A stretch of 41,361 nucleotides of DNA, taken from assembly GCF_913776565.1 (NCBI RefSeq), contig NZ_CAJYPF010000156.1, forward strand, positions 1 to 41,361, read 5' to 3'. The stretch is from an uncultured Microbacterium sp. GTDB taxonomy: Bacteria; Actinomycetota; Actinomycetes; Actinomycetales; Microbacteriaceae. The translations under genes and the position numbers were made by a program. Within the stretch, counting starts at the first letter, position 1; each line of letters begins with the position of its first letter. The notes under the pieces are model-generated. The model was not told the origin of the DNA. It did not search any database and saw only the letters and a list, made by a program, of their open reading frames with translations. Positions 5,929-18,895 of the stretch are shown here, one piece after another.

Positions 5929-7407
5929 TCAGACCCCCGCGGTCACCGCCCGCATCGACGCACGGATGAGGTCGTGCTGGCGACGCACGAGCAGCAGCGG
6001 GTCGACCTCGCCCAGCTCGGCGAACGCGTGGCCCTCCCACTCGCTCGACCAGAAGCCGCGATAGCCGCCCTCGACGAACACGCGCACGAGCTCGGGATAG
6101 TCGATCGCCGGCTCCTGTCCGGCGTCGTCGATGTCGTAGAACTTCGCGTGCACGTGCACGATCTGCGGCATGATGTCGGCCCACTCGCGCGGATCGACGT
6201 GTCCGTGCATGTTGAAGGCCAGGTGCGCGAAGGCGCCCAGCCGACCCGGGTCGAAGTCCCGCCCGCGGAGGTACGCGAGGAACTCCTGCTGGCGCGCCTG
6301 CATCGCGGCATCCGTCGCCCAGATGCTCTGCAGCGTCTGGACCGCCTCGTCGTCGAGGCCCGCGCGGCGCACGGCCCGCAGCAGGGTCGGCGACATCGCG
6401 TGCATGGTGGAGGAGAAGTCGGCGACGAAGCCGAGAAGCGGGGAGTCGAGCTCGGCGTAGGTCTCGCGCACGCGCAGAATCGGTTCGGCGTTCGGACCCA
6501 TCGGCGCATGGATCTCGTACGCGAGTTTCAGCTCGAGGTCCTCGGCGATCGGCAGCAGGCGACGCAGCAGCTCGGGCTTGGCGCTCTGGATGCGCACGAG
6601 GGGGAAGCCGAGCTTCTTCGCCCCCTCGAACATGAGCTTCGAGAACGCGAACTCCTCGTCGGGCGTCATGTCGCGATCGCGGCGGCGCCCCATGTCGAGG
6701 TTCGCGCCGAACGAGCTCTCGACGAACCCGTGGCGGTCGAACGCCGCGCGCCACGTGCGCACGAAGTCGTCGCCGACCACCGGGTAGGTCGGCACCATCT
6801 GGGATGCCACGATCTCGATGCCGGGGCCGATACCGAGCTGGGCGACCCGGTCGAGCAGGCCGTCGAAGTCGAAGTACCCCGCGCGGAACTCCGCGCTGGC
6901 CGAGTACAGCGTCAGGCCGAGCTGGAAGGGGTCCTCCTCGGCCGCGGGCGGCGGGGGCGTGACGTCCGACACGAGCGCCGGGATGCCGGCATCCGCGTCG
7001 ACGACGTCGAGGGTGCGGACGTCGTGCGCGACGTTGGGCACGTACATGCCGGGCCCGCCGTCCTGGCCCGGGGCGATCTGCATGTACGGCAGGCGCAGCT
7101 CGCCGTGCAGCACGACGTCGTGGGTCTCGCCGAGCACGACGGGCCGGGCGCGGCGGGCGACCAGCCGGGGGTGCTCCTGCAGGAACCACAGCCGTTCGCT
7201 GTGCTCCGGCAGCTCGTCGAGCCGGTACGAGGCGTCGGCGAACTCGAGGCGCAGGTCGTCGGCATCCACCTGCTCCCCGTCGACGGTCAGGGCGAGGGTC
7301 GACACCGACGACAGCCAGAGGCTGCGGTACCAGGGGATCGTCAGGCGCAGCGCCAGCCCGTCGGGGTGCGTGCGCAGGCTGTCGTCGTGGATGAGTCCGT
7401 TGGGCAT
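5929..7407 (-). CDS. Fused C-glycoside deglycosidase-like protein (beta-like domain + TIM-barrel alpha-like domain), paralogue 1
   Basis: A 492-residue two-domain protein. Residues ~1-150 resemble the small beta subunit of C-glycoside deglycosidases (DUF6379 type): ALRLTIPWYRSLWLSSVSTLALTVDGE, then YRLDEL and a predicted beta-rich stretch. A Pro-rich linker (PPPPAAEED, ~151) leads to a xylose-isomerase-like TIM barrel. Its metal ligands by eye are E298 (AYEIH), D330 (GFVAD), H420 (HVHAKFYDID) and E456 (SSEWEG). Compared with the neighbouring paralogue it has an extra helical insertion of about 40 residues between the D and H strands. Known enzymes of this kind have separate alpha and beta chains and break the C-C bond of 3-keto C-glycosides. 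It follows the paralogue by 9 nt in one operon. The family call rests on remembered consensus, not a search. Confidence 0.7.
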   Translation of the reverse strand: MPNGLIHDDSLRTHPDGLALRLTIPWYRSLWLSSVSTLALTVDGEQVDADDLRLEFADASYRLDELPEHSERLWFLQEHPRLVARRARPVVLGETHDVVLHGELRLPYMQIAPGQDGGPGMYVPNVAHDVRTLDVVDADAGIPALVSDVTPPPPAAEEDPFQLGLTLYSASAEFRAGYFDFDGLLDRVAQLGIGPGIEIVASQMVPTYPVVGDDFVRTWRAAFDRHGFVESSFGANLDMGRRRDRDMTPDEEFAFSKLMFEGAKKLGFPLVRIQSAKPELLRRLLPIAEDLELKLAYEIHAPMGPNAEPILRVRETYAELDSPLLGFVADFSSTMHAMSPTLLRAVRRAGLDDEAVQTLQSIWATDAAMQARQQEFLAYLRGRDFDPGRLGAFAHLAFNMHGHVDPREWADIMPQIVHVHAKFYDIDDAGQEPAIDYPELVRVFVEGGYRGFWSSEWEGHAFAELGEVDPLLLVRRQHDLIRASMRAVTAGV

Positions 7408-7416
7408 GTCGATCCC

Positions 7417-8718
7417 TCAGAGACGGTCGGCGATCTGGCGGATGAGCGTGTGCTGGCGGCGCACCTGCTCGATCGAGCGCCACGGTTCGCGTTCGCCCTC
7501 GTACTCGCTCGAGAGGTACCCGGTGTAGCCGGCGTCCTTGAGCGCCCGCAGCACGGGCTCCCACGGAATCTGCTGGTCGTGCAGGTCGGCGTCGATGTCG
7601 TGGAACTTCGCCTGGATGAACACGACGTTCTCGATGACGTCGAACACGTCGTTCGGGTCCACGTGGATGCCGTCGAGGAACGCCGGACGCTGACCCGGCA
7701 GCTCGCCGGGCTTGAGCGGAATGGGGCGGTCCTGGAAGATGCCGGTGTCGAGCAGGAGTCCGAAGTGCTTCGTGCCGGTGCGGCGGATGAGGGCGATGTA
7801 GTCGTCGACGACCTCGTGCTTGATGGGGGTCGGCGAGTGGATCTCGGGGCAGATGATCACGTCGAGCTCCTCGGCGAGCGGCAGGGACGCCTCGACGACC
7901 TCGGTCCAGATCGGGTGCGGGATGAGGTCGCTGGAGACGACGCCGATCTTGGGCCGCACGAAGCGGAAGCCGAGGCGCTTCGCGAGACGCAGATCGCGCT
8001 GCAGCGCCGCAGCCCCCTCCTCCACCGTCATGTCGCGGCCGTTCGGGCCGCTCGAGTGCAGGCGCGTGTCGATCCACGAGCCCATGTTGGTCGGCTCGAG
8101 GCCGTACTTCTGCAGGAGGGCGAACCACTGCGCGACCCACTCGTCCGAGGGGTGCGGGTAGTTCGGGACGTGCGCCTCGCCGAGGATCTCGATGCCGGTC
8201 GCGCCGAGGTCGGCGATCGAGGCCATCGCGGTCTCGAGGTCCATGACCGTGCCGAAGTCGGTCATGTAGCTGTAGAGCGAGACGCCGTAGCGGAAGGGGG
8301 CACCGGATGCCTCGGGCGCGAGCGTGACGTGCTTGGTGACGCGGTAGGTGCTCGGCTGGTGCTCCTGAGGGATGTACGACATGCGCAGGCGCAGTTCGAT
8401 CGACAGCTCGTGCACGCCGTCGGGGAGGCCCCCGGGCAGCGGGACGGTGACGATCGCCGCGTCCTCGAGCGGCCAGCGCACGCCGTCGCCGTCCCAGAGC
8501 TGGGCGAGCGTGTACTGCCGCCCCTGGAGCGTCCACAGCGGCACGTCGGGTGCGACGTCGACCAGGCCGGGGATGTTGACGGCGATCCCGTCGATCAGCG
8601 AGGCGGCCATCCCGCGGTACGAGGGCATGCGCACGCGGAACTGGAAGCCGGTGATCTCGCCGCCCTCCCGGACGTTGCGGAATCCGACGGACTGGATGAG
8701 GTCTCTTTCGAGAAGCAT
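7417..8718 (-). CDS. Fused C-glycoside deglycosidase-like protein (beta-like + TIM-barrel alpha-like), paralogue 2
   Basis: A 433-residue protein and first gene of the leftward pair. Residues ~1-135 match the beta-subunit pattern well: SVGFRNVREGGEITGFQFRVRMPSYRGMAASLIDGIAV, RQYTLAQLWDGDGVRW, and a final strand LRMSYIPQ. Residues ~143-433 form a TIM barrel with metal ligands E292 (CPEIH), D324 (LLLDTG), Q369 (VFIQAKFHDID) and E405 (SSEYEG). The third ligand is Gln here and His in paralogue 1. The ATG at 8718 has GAAGGAG 5 nt upstream; the track start at 8778 lies in the promoter region. Deglycosidation of a 3-keto C-glycoside is the best guess; a plain sugar epimerase fused to a DUF6379 domain is the alternative. 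Confidence 0.75.
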   Translation of the reverse strand: MLLERDLIQSVGFRNVREGGEITGFQFRVRMPSYRGMAASLIDGIAVNIPGLVDVAPDVPLWTLQGRQYTLAQLWDGDGVRWPLEDAAIVTVPLPGGLPDGVHELSIELRLRMSYIPQEHQPSTYRVTKHVTLAPEASGAPFRYGVSLYSYMTDFGTVMDLETAMASIADLGATGIEILGEAHVPNYPHPSDEWVAQWFALLQKYGLEPTNMGSWIDTRLHSSGPNGRDMTVEEGAAALQRDLRLAKRLGFRFVRPKIGVVSSDLIPHPIWTEVVEASLPLAEELDVIICPEIHSPTPIKHEVVDDYIALIRRTGTKHFGLLLDTGIFQDRPIPLKPGELPGQRPAFLDGIHVDPNDVFDVIENVVFIQAKFHDIDADLHDQQIPWEPVLRALKDAGYTGYLSSEYEGEREPWRSIEQVRRQHTLIRQIADRL

Positions 8719-8928
8719 CGTCGCTCCTTCTGTGTGGGGTCGCTTCGACGCTACTCGGCTTTTGCAGATTTGCGACATAAGGGGATGTGATGCCGCGCAT
8801 CATCGAGGCGAACGTCGCTCGCTTGCGGGGCGGTACCGACGACGCCTAGGTTCAGAATCCGAATCACCGTTTTGATTTTCCGTCCGACGCGTCGAGGCGG
8901 TTCCGACCGCTCGAAGAGGAGCACACGC
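8719..8928. promoter_or_regulatory. Divergent promoter region, deglycosidase pair / monooxygenase operon
   Basis: This 210-nt region has two operator-like elements. Near the leftward promoter, GCGACATAAGG (8772-8782) echoes the CATAAG boxes in the SBP/lysR promoter. It is followed by the dyad TGATGC-CGC-GCATCA (8788-8802). Nearer the monooxygenase gene, AATCA-N6-TGATT (8862-8877) is a short dyad of the kind TetR proteins bind. TAGGTT at 8847 could be a rightward -10. TAGCGT on the minus strand near 8750 could be the leftward -10. LysR control of the left side and TetR control of the right side is the simplest reading, by inference. Confidence 0.45.
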
Positions 8929-10092
8929 ATGGCCCACCCGTTGAGGATTCTCGTCGTCGGCGCCGGAATCGGAGGCCTCAGCGCCGCCTCGGCACTCGCC
9001 CGCATCGGCGCGACGGTCGACGTGATCGACGACAAGCCCGAGATCAGCGTCGCCGGCGTCGGCTTCGGCTTGCGCATCAACGGCCTGCGCGCCGTGCGCG
9101 AGATCGGCCTGCTCGACGAGGTGCTCGAGATCGGGCATCCCGCACCCGGGATCGACAATCACGACGCCGAGGGGAACCTGCTCAGCACGATGAGCTACGG
9201 CACGCAGGACGAGGGCCTGCCGGGATGCGTGACGATGTCGCGCATCGCCTTCCTCGAGCTCGCCGCCCGGCACGCCCGCGAGAACGGCTGCACCTTCCGC
9301 ATGAGCACGACCGTCGCCGACATCGCGCAACACGATGACACCGCGACGGTCACTTTCAGCACCGGCGACCGGGCCGACTACGACCTCGTCCTCGGCTTCG
9401 ACGGCCTGCACTCGCAGATCCGCCGCGACTACTTCGGCGAGAAGTACGACCCCCGGCCGGTCGGCGGGGTCGCGTGGCGCGTGGGCCTTCCGAACCGCCG
9501 CAAGATCATGCAGCCGATCATCTGTCAGGGCTACGGCGGCAAGATCATGCTCACCCCCCTGTCCGAAGACCTGATGTACATGGTGCTCACCGTGGCCGAA
9601 GAGGGGCGCCCCCGCTACGACGCGAGCAAGATGGCCGAGATCATGCACGACCGCGCCGCGGCCCTGACCCGCGGGTCGGACTTCCTCGCCGACGCGCTCG
9701 ACGACGTCCGCCTCGCCGAGAACGTCGCCTACACGCCGTACTCGACGGTGTGGGTGCCCTATCCCTGGTTCCGCGGCCGCGTGATGATCCTGGGCGACGC
9801 CGCCCACACGATGACCCCCTACCTCGGGTCCGGAGCGGCGATGAGCATCGAGGACGGGGTGGTTCTCGCCCAGGAGCTCGCCCGGAACGACTCGGTGCTC
9901 GACGCCCAGCTCGATGTCATGAAGCGCCGCCTGCCGCGCGTGCGCGCCGTGCACGAGCGCTCGATCGAGTCGATGCTCGAGGAGTTCGACTCCGTCACCG
10001 ACGAGGCCTACCGGGCGCGCATCGAGCACCTCCGCCACGACGAACCGATCGCCAACGAGTACGCCAACCGCCTCCTGCGGATGCCCTACTGA
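8929..10092 (+). CDS. FAD-dependent aromatic monooxygenase (group A flavoprotein hydroxylase)
   Basis: A 387-residue single-component flavoprotein hydroxylase. The three family motifs are present: GAGIGGLSAASALARIG (FAD ADP-binding, residue ~11), GFDGLHSQIRR (DG motif, ~160) and GDAAHTMTPYLGSGAAMSIEDG (GD motif, ~290). Such enzymes use NAD(P)H and O2 to hydroxylate phenolic or benzoic substrates in the cytosol. The ATG at 8929 has GAAGAGGAG at ideal spacing, so the longer track start at 8872 is rejected. It heads an operon with the GH39-like and TetR genes and is divergent from the deglycosidase pair. A role in hydroxylating the released aglycone is likely; the substrate is not identifiable and it is not PobA, which is present separately. 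Confidence 0.9.
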   Translation: MAHPLRILVVGAGIGGLSAASALARIGATVDVIDDKPEISVAGVGFGLRINGLRAVREIGLLDEVLEIGHPAPGIDNHDAEGNLLSTMSYGTQDEGLPGCVTMSRIAFLELAARHARENGCTFRMSTTVADIAQHDDTATVTFSTGDRADYDLVLGFDGLHSQIRRDYFGEKYDPRPVGGVAWRVGLPNRRKIMQPIICQGYGGKIMLTPLSEDLMYMVLTVAEEGRPRYDASKMAEIMHDRAAALTRGSDFLADALDDVRLAENVAYTPYSTVWVPYPWFRGRVMILGDAAHTMTPYLGSGAAMSIEDGVVLAQELARNDSVLDAQLDVMKRRLPRVRAVHERSIESMLEEFDSVTDEAYRARIEHLRHDEPIANEYANRLLRMPY

Positions 10093-10107
10093 GACCGAGG
10101 ACACGAC

Positions 10108-11571
10108 ATGCCGCACCCCGACGCCCCCGCCGCACCCCCGGCATCCCGCACCCGGACTTTCGTCGTGGATGCCGCGGACGAGAGCGCCTTCCGATCGCTG
10201 AACGGCGTCGGCGGCGTCCCCGGACCCGTCGACGATCACCCCGAGTTCCCCGACATGACGCCGCTGTGGCGCGAGGCCGGGGTCACGGTCGTCCGCTCGT
10301 TCGACTGGGTCTCGCGCCTGGACACGCGAAACGACCCCTCCAGCCTCTTCCCCGACTGGAGCGCCGACGTCGACGACCCCGCGAGCTACAACTTCGCCGC
10401 GACCGACCAGTGGGTCGAGTCCGTGCACGCCCTCGGCGCCGAGGTGATGTTCACGGTGGCCAGCTCGATCCCGCGCAACAAGCTCCCCGCCGCCGACGTC
10501 GAGGTGTACGGCCGGGTCGTCGAGCGCATCGTGCGCCACTACTCGCACGGGTGGGCCGGCGGACCGGCGAAGCCCGTGCGCATCTACGAGTTCGGCGACC
10601 AACCCGACTTCGGCCCTCTGCACTTCGCCGGCGAGCCGCGGGAGTTCTACGCCATGTACCGCGCCTTCTGCGAGGCGGTGCAGCGCGTCGACCCGTCGCT
10701 GACCGTCGGAGGTCCTTCTCTGGCGTTCTCCCTCGAGGCGGACGCGCCGTACCGCGAGGGGTTCCTGTCGTTCGTCCGCGAGAACGCCCTCCCCCTCGAC
10801 TTCTTCTCGTTCCTCTGGTTCACCGACGGCACCCGCGATCCGCTCGACTACCGCTACGTCGCGCGCGAGCTGCGGACCCTCCTGGACGACCACGGGTTCA
10901 CCGACACCGATCTGACGCTCAGCTACTGGAACTACCTCGCGGTGCCCAGCAGCTCCGCCCCCGCCGAGGAGAAGGGCGCGTTCATGGCGGCGACCGCCAT
11001 CGCTCTGCAGGACACCGTGATCGACCACGCGTTCTTCTTCCGCGCCGACAGCGGTCGCGATCCGCACTACGGCTTCGTGGACCCGGGCGGGGTCGGCGAC
11101 GTGGACGGCCGACCCGACGAACGCTCCCGTGCACTCGCCCTCGCCGGGCGCGCGATGCGCGGCCGGAGGCTGGCCGTCACCGGTGGCGACGAGTCGGGTC
11201 TCGTCGGCATCGCCGGTCGAGACGGCGACCGTGTGCGCGTGCTCGTGGCGAACTACGCCGCCCCCGACAGCGCGCTCGCGCCGCGCGACGAGGATCGCTT
11301 CACCTTCCGCATCCCGATCGGCGAGCAGCGCATCGAGCTGAGCCTGACCCTGCCTCCGCAGCGCGCGGACCTCGCCTCGGCACGGGTGGAGTCGATCGTC
11401 CTCGACCTGCACCGTCTTCCCTGGGCCGGGCGCACCGTCACCGTGTCGGCCGCCTCGATGACGGGAGCGGTCGACACCTCGCGCGACATCGAGGTGTCCG
11501 CCGACGGTAGCCTTCAGCTGGAGTTCGCCCTGCCGCCGCAGTCGGTCCTTCTCGTGGAGCTGACGGGCTGA
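10108..11571 (+). CDS. GH39-like (beta/alpha)8 glycosidase-fold protein lacking the usual catalytic glutamates
   Basis: A 487-residue protein, 15 nt behind the monooxygenase gene with a GAGGA ribosome site. The barrel (about residues 20-350) follows the GH39 pattern: FRSLNGVGGVPG at the start, VTVVRSFDW, VRIYEFGDQPDFG at the acid/base strand and LTLSYWNYL at the nucleophile strand. A C-terminal beta domain (~370-487) is also as in GH39. By eye the acid/base position, normally WNEP, reads GDQP (Glu to Gln). The nucleophile position, normally TEWN, reads SYWN (Glu to Tyr). There is no signal peptide, so it is cytoplasmic. It may be a binding pseudoenzyme or use other chemistry, for example on a keto-sugar. 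GH39 membership is a moderate-confidence call. Confidence 0.65.
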   Translation: MPHPDAPAAPPASRTRTFVVDAADESAFRSLNGVGGVPGPVDDHPEFPDMTPLWREAGVTVVRSFDWVSRLDTRNDPSSLFPDWSADVDDPASYNFAATDQWVESVHALGAEVMFTVASSIPRNKLPAADVEVYGRVVERIVRHYSHGWAGGPAKPVRIYEFGDQPDFGPLHFAGEPREFYAMYRAFCEAVQRVDPSLTVGGPSLAFSLEADAPYREGFLSFVRENALPLDFFSFLWFTDGTRDPLDYRYVARELRTLLDDHGFTDTDLTLSYWNYLAVPSSSAPAEEKGAFMAATAIALQDTVIDHAFFFRADSGRDPHYGFVDPGGVGDVDGRPDERSRALALAGRAMRGRRLAVTGGDESGLVGIAGRDGDRVRVLVANYAAPDSALAPRDEDRFTFRIPIGEQRIELSLTLPPQRADLASARVESIVLDLHRLPWAGRTVTVSAASMTGAVDTSRDIEVSADGSLQLEFALPPQSVLLVELTG

Positions 11572-11597
11572 CGGGGCGCGAGGAGCGAGGTGCAACG

Positions 11598-12248
11598 GTG
11601 GCGACACGATCGAGCGGCGCCGGCCTGTCGGAGCCGAAGCAGCAGCGCAGTCGCGACTCCTTCGCGAAAGTGCGCCAGGCGGCGCTCGCGCTGCTCCGGG
11701 AACGCGGGACCGGGCAGTTCTCACTGGCCGAGGTGAGCGCGCGGGCCGAGGTGTCGATCGGGTCGATCTACGGCCGGGTCGCGGGCAAGACCGAGCTGCT
11801 GCGTCTCGTGCAGAGCCAGGAATTCGACCGCCTCGACGACGAGACCGCGCTCCGGGTCGGTGCGGCGGGGCTCGGAGCGCCGAGCTTCGCTCAGGCGACG
11901 ACCCGGATCGTCGGCGCCTACGCCGAGATCTTGCGGACCAACCGCGACCTGCTGTCGCCGTTCTTCCTGCTCGGCGTGGACGACGAGGCCATCCTCGAGA
12001 GGGGGCATCGCTCCGGTGACGCCGGGCAGGCCGCGTTCGTGCGGGCCCTGCTCGCCGCGGCGGCGGAGCACGGCGTCGACCTGCCGCCGCAGACGGCGGA
12101 CTGGGCGTTCGAGGTCTTCTACAGCCTCTGCGTGCGCTACCTCGGGTTGGGCGTCGCCGCGACCGCGACTCCCGACGGGGCGTACGGCTGGGACGACCTG
12201 CTCGAGCGGCTCGCGCGCACGGTGTCGCTCATCGTCACCCCGGCCTGA
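11598..12248 (+). CDS. TetR-family transcriptional regulator
   Basis: A 216-residue TetR protein with GTG start; GAGGAGCGAGG precedes it. The helix-turn-helix is at about residues 20-65 (AALALLRERGTGQFSLAEVSARAEVSIGSIYGRVAGKTELL). The remaining helical domain should bind a small ligand and dimerise. It is the last gene of the monooxygenase/GH39-like operon, 26 nt behind it, which suggests autoregulation of that operon through the dyad near 8862-8877. The ligand is probably an aromatic aglycone or degradation product, by context only. Confidence 0.92.
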   Translation: MATRSSGAGLSEPKQQRSRDSFAKVRQAALALLRERGTGQFSLAEVSARAEVSIGSIYGRVAGKTELLRLVQSQEFDRLDDETALRVGAAGLGAPSFAQATTRIVGAYAEILRTNRDLLSPFFLLGVDDEAILERGHRSGDAGQAAFVRALLAAAAEHGVDLPPQTADWAFEVFYSLCVRYLGLGVAATATPDGAYGWDDLLERLARTVSLIVTPA

Positions 12249-12366: not shown

Positions 12367-13533
<1,167 letters not shown>

Positions 13534-13536
13534 GGG

Positions 13537-14175
13537 TCAGTCCTCCAGCTTCAGGCCGAGCAGCGCCTCGACCTCGGCGTGCGTGTTGTCGCCGAACAGC
13601 TCGCGCACGCGGAAGCCGTCGGGGGTGACGTCGAAGACGCCGTGGTCGGTGTAGACCCGCGAGACGCATCCGATCCCGGTCAGCGGGTAGGTGCACGACG
13701 CCACGAGCTTGGGCTCGCCGCCCTTGGTGAGCAGGTCGGTCATGACGTAGACGTCCTTCGCGCCGATCGCGAGGTCCATCGCCCCGCCGACCGCGGGGAT
13801 CGCGCCGGGCTCCCCGGTCGACCAGTTCGCGAGGTCGCCCCCGGCCGACACCTGGAACGCGCCCAGCACGCAGACGTCGAGGTGTCCGCCGCGCATCATC
13901 GCGAACGAGTCGGCGTGATGGAAGTAGGCGGCCCCGGCGAGCGCGGTGACGGGCTGTTTGCCGGCGTTGATGAGGTCGGGGTCGACGCTGCCGCGGGCGG
14001 GGGCGGGGCCCATGCCGAGCATGCCGTTCTCGGTGTGCAGCACGATCTCGAGCCCCGCGGGCAGGTAGTCGGCGACCAGGGTGGGGGCGCCGATGCCGAG
14101 GTTCACCACGGCTCCCTCGGGAATGTCGGATGCCACGCGGGCGGCGAGCTGCGTGCGCGAGATGCGGGTGGTCAT
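13537..14175 (-). CDS. pcaJ: 3-oxoadipate CoA-transferase subunit B
   Basis: A 212-residue beta subunit of a class I CoA-transferase. The catalytic Glu lies in HTENGMLGMGP and the chain starts with the subunit-B pattern TRISRTQLAARVASDIPEGAVVNLGIGAP. With PcaI it moves CoA from succinyl-CoA to 3-oxoadipate. The ATG at 14175 overlaps the pcaI stop (ATGA), ensuring balanced synthesis of the two subunits; the track's longer start at 14664 runs through pcaI in another frame. Confidence 0.95.
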   Translation of the reverse strand: MTTRISRTQLAARVASDIPEGAVVNLGIGAPTLVADYLPAGLEIVLHTENGMLGMGPAPARGSVDPDLINAGKQPVTALAGAAYFHHADSFAMMRGGHLDVCVLGAFQVSAGGDLANWSTGEPGAIPAVGGAMDLAIGAKDVYVMTDLLTKGGEPKLVASCTYPLTGIGCVSRVYTDHGVFDVTPDGFRVRELFGDNTHAEVEALLGLKLED

Positions 14176-14915
14176 CGATCCTCCTCGGATGCCAGGGCGC
14201 GGCCTTCGATGTCGACTCCGCCGACGAATTCCCCGTCGCGCAGCCACGCCCGCTCCCCCACCGCGACCACGCGGTCGACGTAGAGCCCCGGCGTGACGAC
14301 GGCCTCGGGGTCGAGCGAGCCGAGCTCGACGATCTCGTCGACCTGCGCGACGGTCGTGGTGGCCGCGGCGGCCATGATGGGCCCGAAGTTGCGAGCCGTC
14401 TCGCGGTACACCAGGTTGCCCCAGCGGTCGGCCGCGCGGGCGCTGATGAGGGCGACGTCCGCGCGGATGGGGTACTCGAGCACGTAGTCGCGCCCGTCGA
14501 TCTGCCGGGTCTCCTTGCCCTCGGCCAAGTGCGTGCCGACGCCGGTGGGGGTGAAGAACCCGCCGATCCCGGCTCCGGCGGCGCGGATGCGCTCGGCCAG
14601 GTTGCCCTGCGGGACGAGCTCGAGCTCGATCTCTCCGGCGCGGTACAGCCGATCGAACACCCACGAGTCGCTCTGCCGGGGGAACGAGCAGATCATCTTG
14701 CGCACCTGTCCGGCCGCGAGCAGGGCCGCCAGGCCCGTGTCGCCGTTGCCGGCGTTGTTGTTGACGACGGTCAGCCCCGCGGCCCCGTGGGCGATGAGGG
14801 CGTCGATCAACTCGACCGGTTGGCCCGCGCGGCCGAAGCCGCCGATCATCACGGTCGATCCGTCGCGGATGCCGGCCACGGCCGCCGCGACGTCGGGAAC
14901 GGTCTTGTCGATCAT
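14172..14915 (-). CDS. pcaI: 3-oxoadipate CoA-transferase subunit A
   Basis: A 247-residue alpha subunit of the class I CoA-transferase. The glycine-rich GSTVMIGGFGRAGQP and the GAGIGGFFTPTGVGT segment are typical of subunit A. It forms a heteromer with PcaJ. Its start overlaps the pcaC stop and its stop overlaps the pcaJ start, both by 4 nt. Confidence 0.95.
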   Translation of the reverse strand: MIDKTVPDVAAAVAGIRDGSTVMIGGFGRAGQPVELIDALIAHGAAGLTVVNNNAGNGDTGLAALLAAGQVRKMICSFPRQSDSWVFDRLYRAGEIELELVPQGNLAERIRAAGAGIGGFFTPTGVGTHLAEGKETRQIDGRDYVLEYPIRADVALISARAADRWGNLVYRETARNFGPIMAAAATTTVAQVDEIVELGSLDPEAVVTPGLYVDRVVAVGERAWLRDGEFVGGVDIEGRALASEEDR

Positions 14916-15325
14916 CGGGCGTCCTCCTCGGCGGGGACGTCCGCGGCCTCCGGCTCGGCGAACACCGTCGCGGCGATGCGGAAGGCCGTGTTGGCCGCCG
15001 GGACGCCGGAGTACACCGCCGACTGCAGGATGACCTCGCGGATCTCGTCGATCGTGAGGCCGTTGCGGATCGCCGCGCGCAGGTGCATCGCGAGCTCCTC
15101 GTGGTGGCCGTGGGCGATGAGCGAGCTCAGCACCGCGATCGAGCGCGACCGGCGGTCGAGACCCGGGCGCGACCAGACGTCGCCCCAGGCGACGCGGGTG
15201 ATGAAGTCCTGCCAGTCGGCGGTGAGGTCGGTGGTCGCGGCGCGCGCGCGGTCGACGTGCGCGTCGCCGAGTACGGCGCGCCGCACGGCCATGCCCTGGT
15301 CGTGGCGTTCCCGGTCGGTGGGCAT
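14912..15325 (-). CDS. pcaC: 4-carboxymuconolactone decarboxylase
   Basis: A 137-residue AhpD-fold protein (MAVRRAVLGDAHVDRA..., SRSIAVLSSLIAHGHHEELAMHLRAAIRNGLT) that converts gamma-carboxymuconolactone to 3-oxoadipate enol-lactone. The length is that of stand-alone PcaC, so unlike PcaL of many actinobacteria it is not fused to PcaD. The ATG at 15325 is placed by the TGATG junction with pcaD; the track ORF at 16009 is a shadow continuing upstream. Confidence 0.95.
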   Translation of the reverse strand: MPTDRERHDQGMAVRRAVLGDAHVDRARAATTDLTADWQDFITRVAWGDVWSRPGLDRRSRSIAVLSSLIAHGHHEELAMHLRAAIRNGLTIDEIREVILQSAVYSGVPAANTAFRIAATVFAEPEAADVPAEEDAR

Positions 15326-16101
15326 CAGGAGTCTCCTCGGGTGACGGAAGCGAAGAACGAGCGCAGCAGGGCCGCCACGGCCTCGGGCTGCTCGGCGGGG
15401 GGCAGGTGACCGGCGTCCGCGATGCGCGCGACGCGACCGTCGACGACGCCCTCGGCGATCTCGACGGCCTTCGCCTCGGGGGCGACGGCGTCGTGGGCGC
15501 CCCACGCGGCGAGGACGGGGACGTCGATGCCGGCGAGGGTCGAGCGCACGTCGTACGCGGCGAGCGCCTCGCAGCACCGGGCGTAGCCCTCGTCGTCGGC
15601 GTCCTGCAGCGCGTGCAGCAGGCGGCCGCTCAGGTCGGGGCGGCGGGCCATCGAGTCGGGGGCGAACCAGCGCTGCGCCGAGCCGACGATCAGGCTCGAC
15701 GTGCTCTGGGACCGCGCCTGCGCGGCCCGCTCGGCCCACGACACGGGGTCGCCCAGAACGGCTCCGGATGCCACGATCGCGGCCGCGCGCACGCGGTCGC
15801 CGTGGCGCCGGGCGAGCTCGAGCCCCGTGGCCCCGCCGAGCGAGACGCCGGCGTACAAGAAGGTGTCGTCGGCCACGGCGGCGGCCACGGCATCCGCGAG
15901 GTCGGCGACGGTGAACGCGTGCGAGACGCGCGGCCCCGCGCCGTGTCCGGGCAGGTCCCACGCGGCGACGCGGTAGTCGTCGGCGAGAAGCGGGATCACG
16001 TCCTCCCACAGGATCGTCGAGGTTCCGAGCGAAGGGCCGAGCACGACGAGGGGCGCGTTCTCCGGTCCGACCGGTTCGTTCAGGCGGATGAGAGTCGTCA
16101 T
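15325..16101 (-). CDS. pcaD: 3-oxoadipate enol-lactonase
   Basis: A 258-residue alpha/beta hydrolase. The nucleophile Ser is in GVSLGGATG, the acid Asp in WGAHDAVAP and the His in DAGHLPPAEQP; GPSLGTS near residue 18 provides the oxyanion region. It hydrolyses 3-oxoadipate enol-lactone to 3-oxoadipate. The ATG at 16101 overlaps the pcaB stop (ATGA) and its TGA shares one base with the pcaC start. The long track ORF (to 17358) is a reading-frame extension into pcaB. Confidence 0.95.
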   Translation of the reverse strand: MTTLIRLNEPVGPENAPLVVLGPSLGTSTILWEDVIPLLADDYRVAAWDLPGHGAGPRVSHAFTVADLADAVAAAVADDTFLYAGVSLGGATGLELARRHGDRVRAAAIVASGAVLGDPVSWAERAAQARSQSTSSLIVGSAQRWFAPDSMARRPDLSGRLLHALQDADDEGYARCCEALAAYDVRSTLAGIDVPVLAAWGAHDAVAPEAKAVEIAEGVVDGRVARIADAGHLPPAEQPEAVAALLRSFFASVTRGDS

Positions 16102-17471
16102 CGGTTCTCTCCGTTCCCGCCCCGAGCGGTGCCGCGGCCGACGTGGGTCGTGCCCCGCGCGAGCCGAGGCGCCAGCCCCAGGTAGCCGGCCGGGTCCACC
16201 AGGGACTCGATGTCGAGACCGGTCGTCTCGGGCAGGGCGCGCAGGCGCGACGCCAGATCGTCGTCGCCCGAGAGCAGCTCGGCGAACCGCTCGGCGCCGA
16301 TGAGCGGCACGAGCACTCCGCGCAGACGTTCGCTCACGAGCCGGCCGCGGGTCAGGGCGGCGTTGTCCGCCGCGGCGCCGACGTCCACGCGCAGGTGGGC
16401 CAGCAGCGACGACCCGTGCGCCGACGCGCCGACGGCGAGCCGCAGCAGCTCCCGCAGGGTCGGCCACTCGGCGTGCCAGGCGCCGTCGGGGCGCTCGTCG
16501 ACGGCGAGGGCGGATGCCAGGTGCAGCGTCGCAGCCAGCTGCGGCGCGCGCAGGGCGGCGGAGCAGATCAGCACCGCCTCGGCGGGGTTCTGCTTCTGGG
16601 GCATGGCGGACGATCCCCCGCCGATCGCCTCGGAGACCTCGCCGATCTCGGTGCGGCTGAGGGTCGCGACGTCCCCGGCCACCTTGCCGAGCGCGTCGAT
16701 CGCGCGGACGAGGGCGTCGCCGATCTCGGTCACCGGACCACGCGAGACGTGCCACGGGGCGTCGGGGGCGTCGAGTCCGAGTGCCCAGGCGAAGGTCGCG
16801 GGCAGGGCGTCGGCGGCATCCGGGGATCCGGTCGCCTCGACGAACGAGGCGAGGGTCCCCCCGGCCCCGGCGAGCTGCGCGGGGAAGGTCAGGGTCTCGA
16901 GCTGCCGGGCGGCGCGTTCCAGCCCGCGCGCCCAGGTCGCGGCACGCGCACCGATCGTGGTGGGCACCGCGTGCTGCGTGAGGGTGCGCGCCGCGGCGAC
17001 GTCGTCGGCGTGCCGCTCGGCGAGCTGTCGCGCCCACGCGGCCGCGTTGCTCGTGGACCGCCGCGTCTGCTCGACGGCGCGGCGCGCCACGACCATCAGC
17101 GCGGTGTCGAGGATGTCCTGGCTCGTCGCGCCGCGGTGGATCCACCCGCGATGGGCGAGATCGACCTGGGCCCGCAGCATCCCCACGAGGGGGATGACGG
17201 GGTTCCCCCCGGCGACCGCGTCGCGCACGATCCGGGCGATGTCGAGCGCGCGGATCGACGTCCCGCCCTTCTCGTCGCGCCCGAAGACATGATCGATGTG
17301 CGCACGCGCCTCGCGGGGGGCTGCGCCCACCTCGACGTAGGCCGCGACGAGCGCGCACTCCACGTCGACGAGCGTGCGCAGCACGAAGGCGTCCGACAGC
17401 AGGTCGTCGTGCCCGACGCTCACGGGCGAGAGAAGGCCGATGTCGAGGACGGACGGAGTGTCAGAAGGCAA
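16098..17471 (-). CDS. pcaB: 3-carboxy-cis,cis-muconate cycloisomerase
   Basis: A 457-residue member of the fumarase/aspartase superfamily. The signature loop is GGGSSAMPQKQNPAEA, and WIHRGATSQDILDTA is the second conserved block. It lactonises beta-carboxymuconate to gamma-carboxymuconolactone. The length is normal for PcaB. Its start lies inside the 3' end of pcaG (11-nt overlap), which argues for translational coupling. Confidence 0.95.
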   Translation of the reverse strand: MPSDTPSVLDIGLLSPVSVGHDDLLSDAFVLRTLVDVECALVAAYVEVGAAPREARAHIDHVFGRDEKGGTSIRALDIARIVRDAVAGGNPVIPLVGMLRAQVDLAHRGWIHRGATSQDILDTALMVVARRAVEQTRRSTSNAAAWARQLAERHADDVAAARTLTQHAVPTTIGARAATWARGLERAARQLETLTFPAQLAGAGGTLASFVEATGSPDAADALPATFAWALGLDAPDAPWHVSRGPVTEIGDALVRAIDALGKVAGDVATLSRTEIGEVSEAIGGGSSAMPQKQNPAEAVLICSAALRAPQLAATLHLASALAVDERPDGAWHAEWPTLRELLRLAVGASAHGSSLLAHLRVDVGAAADNAALTRGRLVSERLRGVLVPLIGAERFAELLSGDDDLASRLRALPETTGLDIESLVDPAGYLGLAPRLARGTTHVGRGTARGGNGENR

Positions 17472-18018
17472 GGAACACCGTCTCGTTCTCGCCCTGCAGC
17501 CGGATGTCGTGCGTCAGGTACCCCTCGGGCGTGCGGGTCGCGATCAGGCTGGCGCGCTCGGTCTCGTCGAGCGAGGCCAGCAGGGGGTCGGCGGCGAGCG
17601 CCGCGGCGTCGGCCGGCGAGTAGATGCGGGTGTGCAGCTTGTCGGGCAGGCCGCGCGCGAACACGATCGCGGCGAAGAATCCCGCGCGACCGGACTGGAT
17701 GCCGGGTTCCCTCGTCCAGAACGTGTAGCGCCCCTCGTCGTCGGTGAAGGCGCGACCGAAACCGGTGAAGGTGTGGTCGTCGCGGCGGAACGCCCCGCGC
17801 GCCCGCGGCACCGAGCCGTCGGCATCCGCCCCGAAGATCTCCACCAGCGCGTCGGGGATCGGCGCCCCTGCTCCGTCGCGCACCGTGCCCGACAGCACGA
17901 TCGCGCCGGGCGAATGGGGGAAGACGACCTCGTGCTGCTTCGGGTACTCCAGGCCGTAGGCGAAGAACGGCCCGACGGTCTGGCCGGGTGTCGCGCGATG
18001 CGTCTTGGCGGGGATCAT
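17461..18018 (-). CDS. pcaG: Protocatechuate 3,4-dioxygenase alpha chain
   Basis: A 185-residue alpha subunit of the Fe(III) intradiol dioxygenase. It has the family start ATPGQTVGPFFAYGLEYP and the core IVLSGTVRDGAGAPIPDALVEIF...GRAFTDDEGRYTFWTREPG. Two starts are possible. ATG 18018 has AGGAGG 7 nt upstream and leads straight into the conserved N-terminus. ATG 18084, used by the track, also has GGAGG but adds 22 residues encoded partly by a repeat-like sequence. I prefer 18018. The alpha chain lacks the iron ligands and completes the active site with PcaH. It overlaps pcaB by 11 nt. Confidence 0.93.
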   Translation of the reverse strand: MIPAKTHRATPGQTVGPFFAYGLEYPKQHEVVFPHSPGAIVLSGTVRDGAGAPIPDALVEIFGADADGSVPRARGAFRRDDHTFTGFGRAFTDDEGRYTFWTREPGIQSGRAGFFAAIVFARGLPDKLHTRIYSPADAAALAADPLLASLDETERASLIATRTPEGYLTHDIRLQGENETVFLAF

Positions 18019-18036
18019 GCCCGGCCCTCCTGCGCG

Positions 18037-18058
18037 CCCTTCGACCGGCTCGGAGACC
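18037..18058. repeat. REP-like fragment in the pcaH-pcaG junction
   Basis: On the minus strand the sequence reads GAGCCGGTCGAAGGG preceded by GGTCTCC. This matches the dispersed GAGC(C/T)TGTCGAAGGG-type palindromic repeats often seen between genes in actinobacteria and proteobacteria. It lies in the 67 nt between the pcaH stop and the preferred pcaG start. No second copy was seen in the window. The resemblance is from memory of the repeat family. Confidence 0.4.
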
Positions 18059-18085
18059 GCATCGTGCCTCGATGTGCTCGTCATC

Positions 18086-18895
18086 TCACTCGTCCTCCGC
18101 CTCGAAGTACGTGCGGTCGGGTCCGTCCACGACGATGTCGAAACGGTATCCCGTCGCCCACTCGGGCGAGGTCAGGTCGTGGTCGTACACGCCGACGAGG
18201 GCGTCGCGGTCCTTCTGCCGGTGGATGCTGTTGTAGATCGGGTCGAGGGCGAAGAGCGGGTCGCCCGGGAAGTACATCTGCGTCACCAGGCGCTGCGTGA
18301 AAGAGGACCCGAACACCGAGAAGTGGATGTGGGCGGGCCGCCACGCGTTGCGGTGGTTCTTCCAGGGGTACGGGCCCGGCTTGATCGTCGTGAAGCGGTA
18401 CTCGCCGTTCTCGTCCGTGATCGCGCGACCGGCGCCGGTGAAATTCGGGTCGAGCGGGGCGGGGTGCTGGTCGCGCTGGTGGATGTAGCGACCGGCGGAG
18501 TTGGCCTGCCAGATCTCGATCAGCTGGTTCGCCACCGGGCGCCCCCACGAGTCGAGCAGTCGGCCCTGCACCGTCATCCGCTCGCCCAGGGGCTCTCCGG
18601 CGTGCTGCAGTGTCAGGTCCGACTCGATCGCGGCGACGTCGCGCTGCCCGAACGCGGGCGAGAACAGCTCGATCGTCTCGGGGTCCACGAGCTTCGGGTT
18701 CTTGGTGGGATGCCGCAGCACGCTCGACCGGTAGGCCGGGAAGTCGTGGGCGGTCGCCGGCACGTCCTCGCCCGCGGCATCGGCGCGGTCGAGTTCGGCG
18801 TGACGGGCCCGGATCTCGCGGACGATGTCGTCCTGCGTCGCCTGGTCGGGCGCGGCGAGCAGCGATTCGGGTGCTGCGGCGGGGCGGTTCGTCAT
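18086..18895 (-). CDS. pcaH: Protocatechuate 3,4-dioxygenase beta chain
   Basis: A 269-residue beta subunit holding the non-heme Fe(III). The ligands are visible as Y137 (AGRYIHQRD), Y176 (GPYPWKNH), H189 and H191 (RPAHIHFSVFG). With PcaG it opens the protocatechuate ring to beta-carboxymuconate. It is the promoter-proximal gene of an eight-gene operon that holds the full branch from protocatechuate to succinyl-CoA and acetyl-CoA. The start at 18895 has GAAGGAG at good spacing. An IclR-box candidate lies 56 nt upstream, shared with the divergent regulator. Confidence 0.96.
   Translation of the reverse strand: MTNRPAAAPESLLAAPDQATQDDIVREIRARHAELDRADAAGEDVPATAHDFPAYRSSVLRHPTKNPKLVDPETIELFSPAFGQRDVAAIESDLTLQHAGEPLGERMTVQGRLLDSWGRPVANQLIEIWQANSAGRYIHQRDQHPAPLDPNFTGAGRAITDENGEYRFTTIKPGPYPWKNHRNAWRPAHIHFSVFGSSFTQRLVTQMYFPGDPLFALDPIYNSIHRQKDRDALVGVYDHDLTSPEWATGYRFDIVVDGPDRTYFEAEDE

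Follow-up and report, generated by a model that had tools for sequence, protein, structure and literature searches.

A GH39-like barrel with both catalytic glutamates replaced and its conserved FAD monooxygenase partner

What does a glycosidase barrel do once both of its catalytic glutamates have been replaced? The question is raised by a gene from an uncultured Microbacterium sp., carried on a stretch of 41,361 nucleotides (contig NZ_CAJYPF010000156.1; 71% GC) that is called the window here. An earlier note on this DNA had picked out its product, which we call GH39L, as a relative of glycoside hydrolase family 39 (GH39) with unusual residues at both catalytic positions. We propose that GH39L is a functional, non-classical enzyme that acts with a monooxygenase on a glycosylated aromatic compound. 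To this reading, in which we infer both substrate and chemistry, we give a probability of about 0.45. The gene and its partners, referred to below as the module, lie among the following features.

5929 to 7407, minus strand: the second of two fusions of C-glycoside deglycosidase beta (CGDB) with a TIM domain
7417 to 8718, minus strand: fusion of CGDB with a xylose-isomerase-like TIM domain, a divergent neighbour with its own promoter motif
8852 to 8881, plus strand: operator-like site TCAGAATCCGAATCACCGTTTTGATTTTCC upstream of the monooxygenase gene, identical at 22 of 30 positions to the site of TetR-bearing loci
8929 to 10092, plus strand: group A FAD monooxygenase, 387 amino acids, starting at the ATG at 8929; the conserved partner of GH39L
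10108 to 11571, plus strand: GH39L, a GH39-like protein of 487 amino acids, almost certainly of the CmGH1 type, recognized by profile, PDB match, composition and predicted fold
10594 to 10605, plus strand: GDQP codons (G163-D164-Q165-P166); the GH39 counterpart is W-N-E(acid/base)-P
10921 to 10932, plus strand: SYWN codons (S272-Y273-W274-N275); the GH39 counterpart is T-E(nucleophile)-W/F
11038 to 11070, plus strand: FRADSGRDPHY, codons 311-321, at and after strand 8; R312, D314, D318, H320 and Y321 are invariant in 18 homologues
11598 to 12248, plus strand: TetR-family regulator, the third gene of the module in eight loci including the window

Is GH39L a real gene product with the fold of its family? 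It is: the reading frame has a coding-type composition (GC of 0.72, 0.50 and 0.92 at the three codon positions) and its product has a GH39 barrel fold. The Pfam GH39 profile scores 34 bits against a cut-off of 26 (E 1.9e-8) in a match to residues 94-236 only; an NCBIfam search assigned no family. The structure predicted by AlphaFold with 16 sequences (mean pLDDT 79.8, pTM 0.83) is a (beta/alpha)8 barrel plus a beta-sandwich. Similarity to clan GH-A, on which the earlier note had staked its proposal, is clear: in a Foldseek search of the PDB the model matches 5z3k best (TM 0.90), followed by GH39 xylosidases and alpha-L-iduronidase. The GH39 beta-xylosidases (1PX8, 2BS9, 4EKJ) and alpha-L-iduronidase (4KGJ) have the same barrel and sandwich and belong to Pfam GH39, but they are about 13-17% identical to GH39L in structural alignment, and both catalytic glutamates and most residues of the -1 subsite are replaced in GH39L. 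A signal-like N-terminus is not visible, in agreement with the cytoplasmic location first suggested. The nearest orthologues come from Microbacterium and other Microbacteriaceae.

Replacement of both glutamates, the core of the earlier note, is confirmed by alignment with 5Z3K and with nine genuine GH39 proteins of the window's phylum. The acid/base motif reads WNEP in eight of the nine and ANEP in the other, whereas that of GH39L reads GDQP. At the nucleophile strand all nine have glutamate, in the form (T/N/D)E(W/F), and GH39L has SYWN; the 'TEWN' originally taken as canonical was right in kind, since GH39 relatives read TEW or TEF. In place of N-E-P after strand 4, then, stands D164-Q165-P166, and in place of the glutamate at the end of strand 7 stands Y273. 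The predicted structure puts Q165 and Y273 at the C-terminal ends of barrel strands 159-162 and 268-273. Alignment with canonical GH39 reveals no compensating glutamate at strand 4 or strand 7. E161 was rejected as a replacement: it lies inside the strand ahead of the motif, and canonical GH39 proteins commonly have it as well (the FE of FEVWNEP). Other parts of the -1 subsite have changed as well. The His-x-Tyr stretch after strand 6 has become Trp-Phe, and the canonical strand-8 motif has given way to FRADSGRDPHY, which is absent from canonical GH39.

Do these substitutions mark a site in decay or a site maintained? D164 and Q165 are conserved in all 18 homologues, and Y273 is tyrosine in 17 and serine in one. 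Also invariant are R63, D66, W237, R312, D314, D318, H320 and Y321, and the pocket residues of GH39L are unchanged across homologues at 46-84% identity. In barrel enzymes the active site is formed by the C-terminal ends of the strands, and the invariant residues are enriched there (35/70 versus 74/231, one-sided Fisher p 0.005). This is the pattern of a maintained site, not of decay. Conservation alone does not tell catalysis from ligand binding.

The best PDB match of GH39L, at full length and with an E-value of 4e-145, is CmGH1 from Croceicoccus marinus (5Z3K, WP_066849948). The two proteins share 46-51% identity over the chain and the fold; both have Asp-Gln and Tyr at strands 4 and 7, with Q165 aligned to Gln157 and Y273 to Tyr264; and both have an FAD monooxygenase of the same group encoded directly upstream. 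These are the features of a CmGH1-type protein, and GH39L almost certainly is one. The loci differ in their surroundings: that of CmGH1 has a GntR regulator and an MFS transporter and no C-glycoside-deglycosidase genes nearby, whereas the window has a TetR regulator and an ABC transporter. The double substitution, which the earlier note had implied to be novel, is already known: Gln157 and Tyr264 of CmGH1 were reported in 2019 to stand for both glutamates of XynB (PMC6933502).

The same paper describes what CmGH1 does in vitro (PMC6933502). It hydrolyses pNP-glucoside with a kcat of 2.15 per min and also cleaves cellobiose, and it has no xylosidase activity. The Q157E mutant is 15-fold more active, Q157A is unchanged and Y264E is inactive. 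The authors proposed a slow, genuine retaining beta-glucosidase with a tyrosine nucleophile, of which there are precedents in some GH families (cited in PMC6933502); if GH39L works likewise, the monooxygenase would handle the freed aglycone. The two substrates and the dead Y264E mutant favour this explanation, but the kcat is very low, Q157A equals the wild type, nearly all of the GH39 -1 subsite residues are replaced, and there is no obvious use for an enzyme that fails on pNP-xyloside and barely works on pNP-glucoside. We consider it unlikely. With enzyme at 100 uM in the assay and incubation for up to 5 h, contamination by a glucosidase is possible. The slow p-nitrophenyl-glucosidase activity may not be the native reaction. 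CmGH1 also retains 10% activity in 10 mM EDTA (PMC6933502). After strand 8, residues 311-325 of GH39L (window 11038-11082) include an invariant R/D/D/H/Y/D cluster that sets the protein apart from canonical GH39 and might be a metal site given this EDTA sensitivity; the loop at 313-328 is poorly modelled in the predicted structure.

The second question is what the flavin hydroxylase, noted earlier as co-operonic, has to do with GH39L. Its gene stops at 10092, leaving 15 bases to the GH39L ATG (the TTG start at 8872 given by the ORF caller is probably too early), and the pairing is much stronger than the window alone could show. The monooxygenase lies directly upstream of GH39L in 15/15 fetched Actinobacterial loci, split by an apparent frameshift in L008, and the C. 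marinus monooxygenase gene, as annotated, shares 1 base with that of CmGH1. Six of 400 Microbacteriaceae genomes encode GH39L, and a monooxygenase orthologue (E below 1e-140) occurs in exactly those six; apart from these, a single monooxygenase match passed the threshold, at 36% identity. The pairwise identities for GH39L and those for the monooxygenase are correlated (Spearman 0.91); the p-value is not to be taken at face value, the pairs not being independent. The spread of the pairing partly reflects shared ancestry; outside the Actinobacteria the distribution of GH39L comes from a plasmid collection only. With these counts in hand, we hold it very probable that the two proteins are functionally coupled. 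The closest solved relatives of the monooxygenase are tropone 2-monooxygenase and 6-hydroxynicotinate 3-monooxygenase, which hydroxylate aromatic or tropone rings. A role as a sugar 3-oxidase is unlikely, since these relatives are ring hydroxylases.

One homologue departs from the rule that the partner is an adjacent FAD monooxygenase of a single orthologous group. This most distant homologue, from Novosphingobium humi (L019, 15142-16437), has no monooxygenase partner on its plasmid, the one replicon searched for this single case. It also has an RR-containing, export-like N-terminus and is, from its sequence, possibly a periplasmic offshoot with another role. Because it carries the serine, the tyrosine is not universal in the homologues.

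How might the module be controlled? In the window, and likewise in L002, L003, L004, L005, L007, L010 and L012, GH39L is followed by a TetR gene. At all eight loci a site similar to TCAGAATCAGAACCAACGTACTGATTCTGA lies 66-93 bases upstream of the monooxygenase gene, with 19-29 of 30 positions matching; the p-value of about 0.002 is the floor of 500 shuffles, and the consensus comes from two of these related loci. The site is absent from loci lacking this TetR (L006, L009, L011, L014, L015 and L020). L013 and L016 have distant TetR matches only, and there the site is missing or weak; at L008 it is present, and the contig ends before any TetR could show. Gene and putative operator thus occur together, which supports a regulatory pairing but does not prove it, because the consensus was drawn from two of the loci and the sequences are related.

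These observations bear on one of the roles first suggested, that of a pseudo-glycosidase binding a glycoside or sugar as a sensor, a carrier or a subunit of the monooxygenase. Both catalytic glutamates are gone, this state is stable across species and GH39L always adjoins the monooxygenase, all as expected of such a protein. But TetR is already encoded as a regulator, FAD monooxygenases of the single-component kind normally work without a subunit, and pure ligand binding is further weakened by the slow glucosidase activity of CmGH1 in vitro, which depends on Tyr264 (PMC6933502). We find this explanation distinctly unlikely.

The other role suggested was non-hydrolytic chemistry on a keto-sugar or C-glycoside, and it directs attention to the genes around the module. 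Both CGDB fusions adjoin it in the window (the start of the nearer was set at ATG 8718 by orthologue length), with a sugar ABC transporter beyond them. In this the window resembles the Car, Pur and Dgp C-glycoside clusters, with their CGDB and isomerase-like TIM domains. About 10 of 15 loci have CGDB genes within 8 kb of the module, and the arrangements are of at least three kinds (upstream and divergent, downstream, and upstream in the same direction). We argue for a functional association because the proximity survives rearrangement. No CGDB gene was found near the module in C. marinus, L007, L008, L013, L014 or L016. The known clusters, for which the literature as searched reports no GH39-like component, use a GMC or Gfo/Idh/MocA oxidase, but none stands beside the GH39L module: GMC oxidase has no match on the window contig, and a scan of the genes at 5929-12248 assigned them to other families.

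Several observations were made in passing in these neighbourhoods. A conserved promoter motif, CTTATGTC..GCATAAG / GGGTAGCGTCG, precedes the nearer deglycosidase fusion (8719-8790) and stays with its gene where that gene sits away from the monooxygenase; before the monooxygenase the motif is TCAGAATC..GATTCTGA. Joint regulation of the two operons is unsupported, the motifs being different. The deglycosidase fusion upstream of the module in Naasia aerilata (L006 5310-6631, complete genome) and in L029 (56-1377) is split by an apparent frameshift, either a pseudogene or a sequencing error; L029 may be the same species as L006. On another contig of the window's genome, C19 (L042 1-7462), a GMC oxidase fragment, CGDB, isomerase-like genes and a Gfo/Idh/MocA-like oxidoreductase make up a more canonical C-glycoside catabolic cluster. 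Downstream of the module, a beta-ketoadipate-type aromatic pathway lies at window 12367-18895: a thiolase, a CoA-transferase and two dioxygenase-domain genes, of which one has the protocatechuate 3,4-dioxygenase beta N-terminal domain. Among the neighbours at other loci are an alpha-rhamnosidase gene (L015) and genes of arabinose catabolism (L014). The theme common to these neighbourhoods is plant glycosides and aromatics.

Could GH39L then be a 3-oxo-glycoside lyase or hydrolase of a C-glycoside pathway, in which Tyr and Asp take a proton from C2 and beta-elimination expels the aglycone? Loss of the glutamate pair would fit elimination chemistry, and the CGDB neighbours, like the cluster on C19, give circumstantial support. 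Against this, CGDB is missing at the several loci named, the promoter motif of the CGDB operon is separate from that of the monooxygenase operon, the window has no adjacent sugar oxidase, and the partner flavoenzyme is of the ring hydroxylase type. The interpretation in the earlier note is partly supported; this version of it we think rather unlikely.

Our preferred reading is that GH39L would be catalytic, not merely ligand-binding, and would have the dedicated FAD monooxygenase, a single-component enzyme, as its partner. The two would serve to break down a glycosylated aromatic compound, probably from plants, and in most cases a TetR repressor encoded with them would control the pair. In the CmGH1-type branch, Gln165 occupies the place of the acid/base glutamate, Asp164 that of the preceding asparagine and Tyr273 that of the nucleophile. 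Because the acid/base is Gln and Q157A is no worse than the wild type, the leaving group would need no protonation; the bond would be broken without a proton donor, as in plant myrosinases. The myrosinases, which belong to GH1, carry a natural Glu-to-Gln change at the acid/base position, but they keep the nucleophile glutamate where GH39L has Tyr. The tyrosine is a candidate nucleophile or base because it is required in CmGH1. In clan GH-A the asparagine before the acid/base normally touches the sugar 2-OH, so that its replacement by Asp makes a new carboxylate available; Tyr273, Asp164 or both could serve as nucleophile or base. The monooxygenase would act on the aromatic half before or after cleavage. 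Together, the changed site and the aromatic hydroxylase suggest as substrate an aromatic glycoside from which the sugar departs readily or through non-hydrolytic chemistry. One specific form, a two-enzyme oxidative deglycosylation in which ring hydroxylation of an aryl glycoside by the flavoenzyme comes first and GH39L then frees the sugar by glutamate-independent Asp/Tyr chemistry, we consider rather unlikely.

CmGH1 was published as a beta-glucosidase on the basis of very slow activity, with its missing glutamates left as an oddity, and its paper makes no mention of a monooxygenase or an operon (PMC6933502). We found no GH39 and monooxygenase system in the open-licence literature, where the monooxygenase partner and the C-glycoside neighbourhood appear undescribed so far. 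Conservation of the pairing in two phyla points to a glycosylated aromatic as the probable real substrate. Should the two proteins together cleave a glycoside, they would represent a kind of sugar removal that the usual sequence-based labels, xylosidase and glucosidase, misname. The monooxygenase partner and the C-glycoside context turn an odd crystal structure into a testable question about a pathway.
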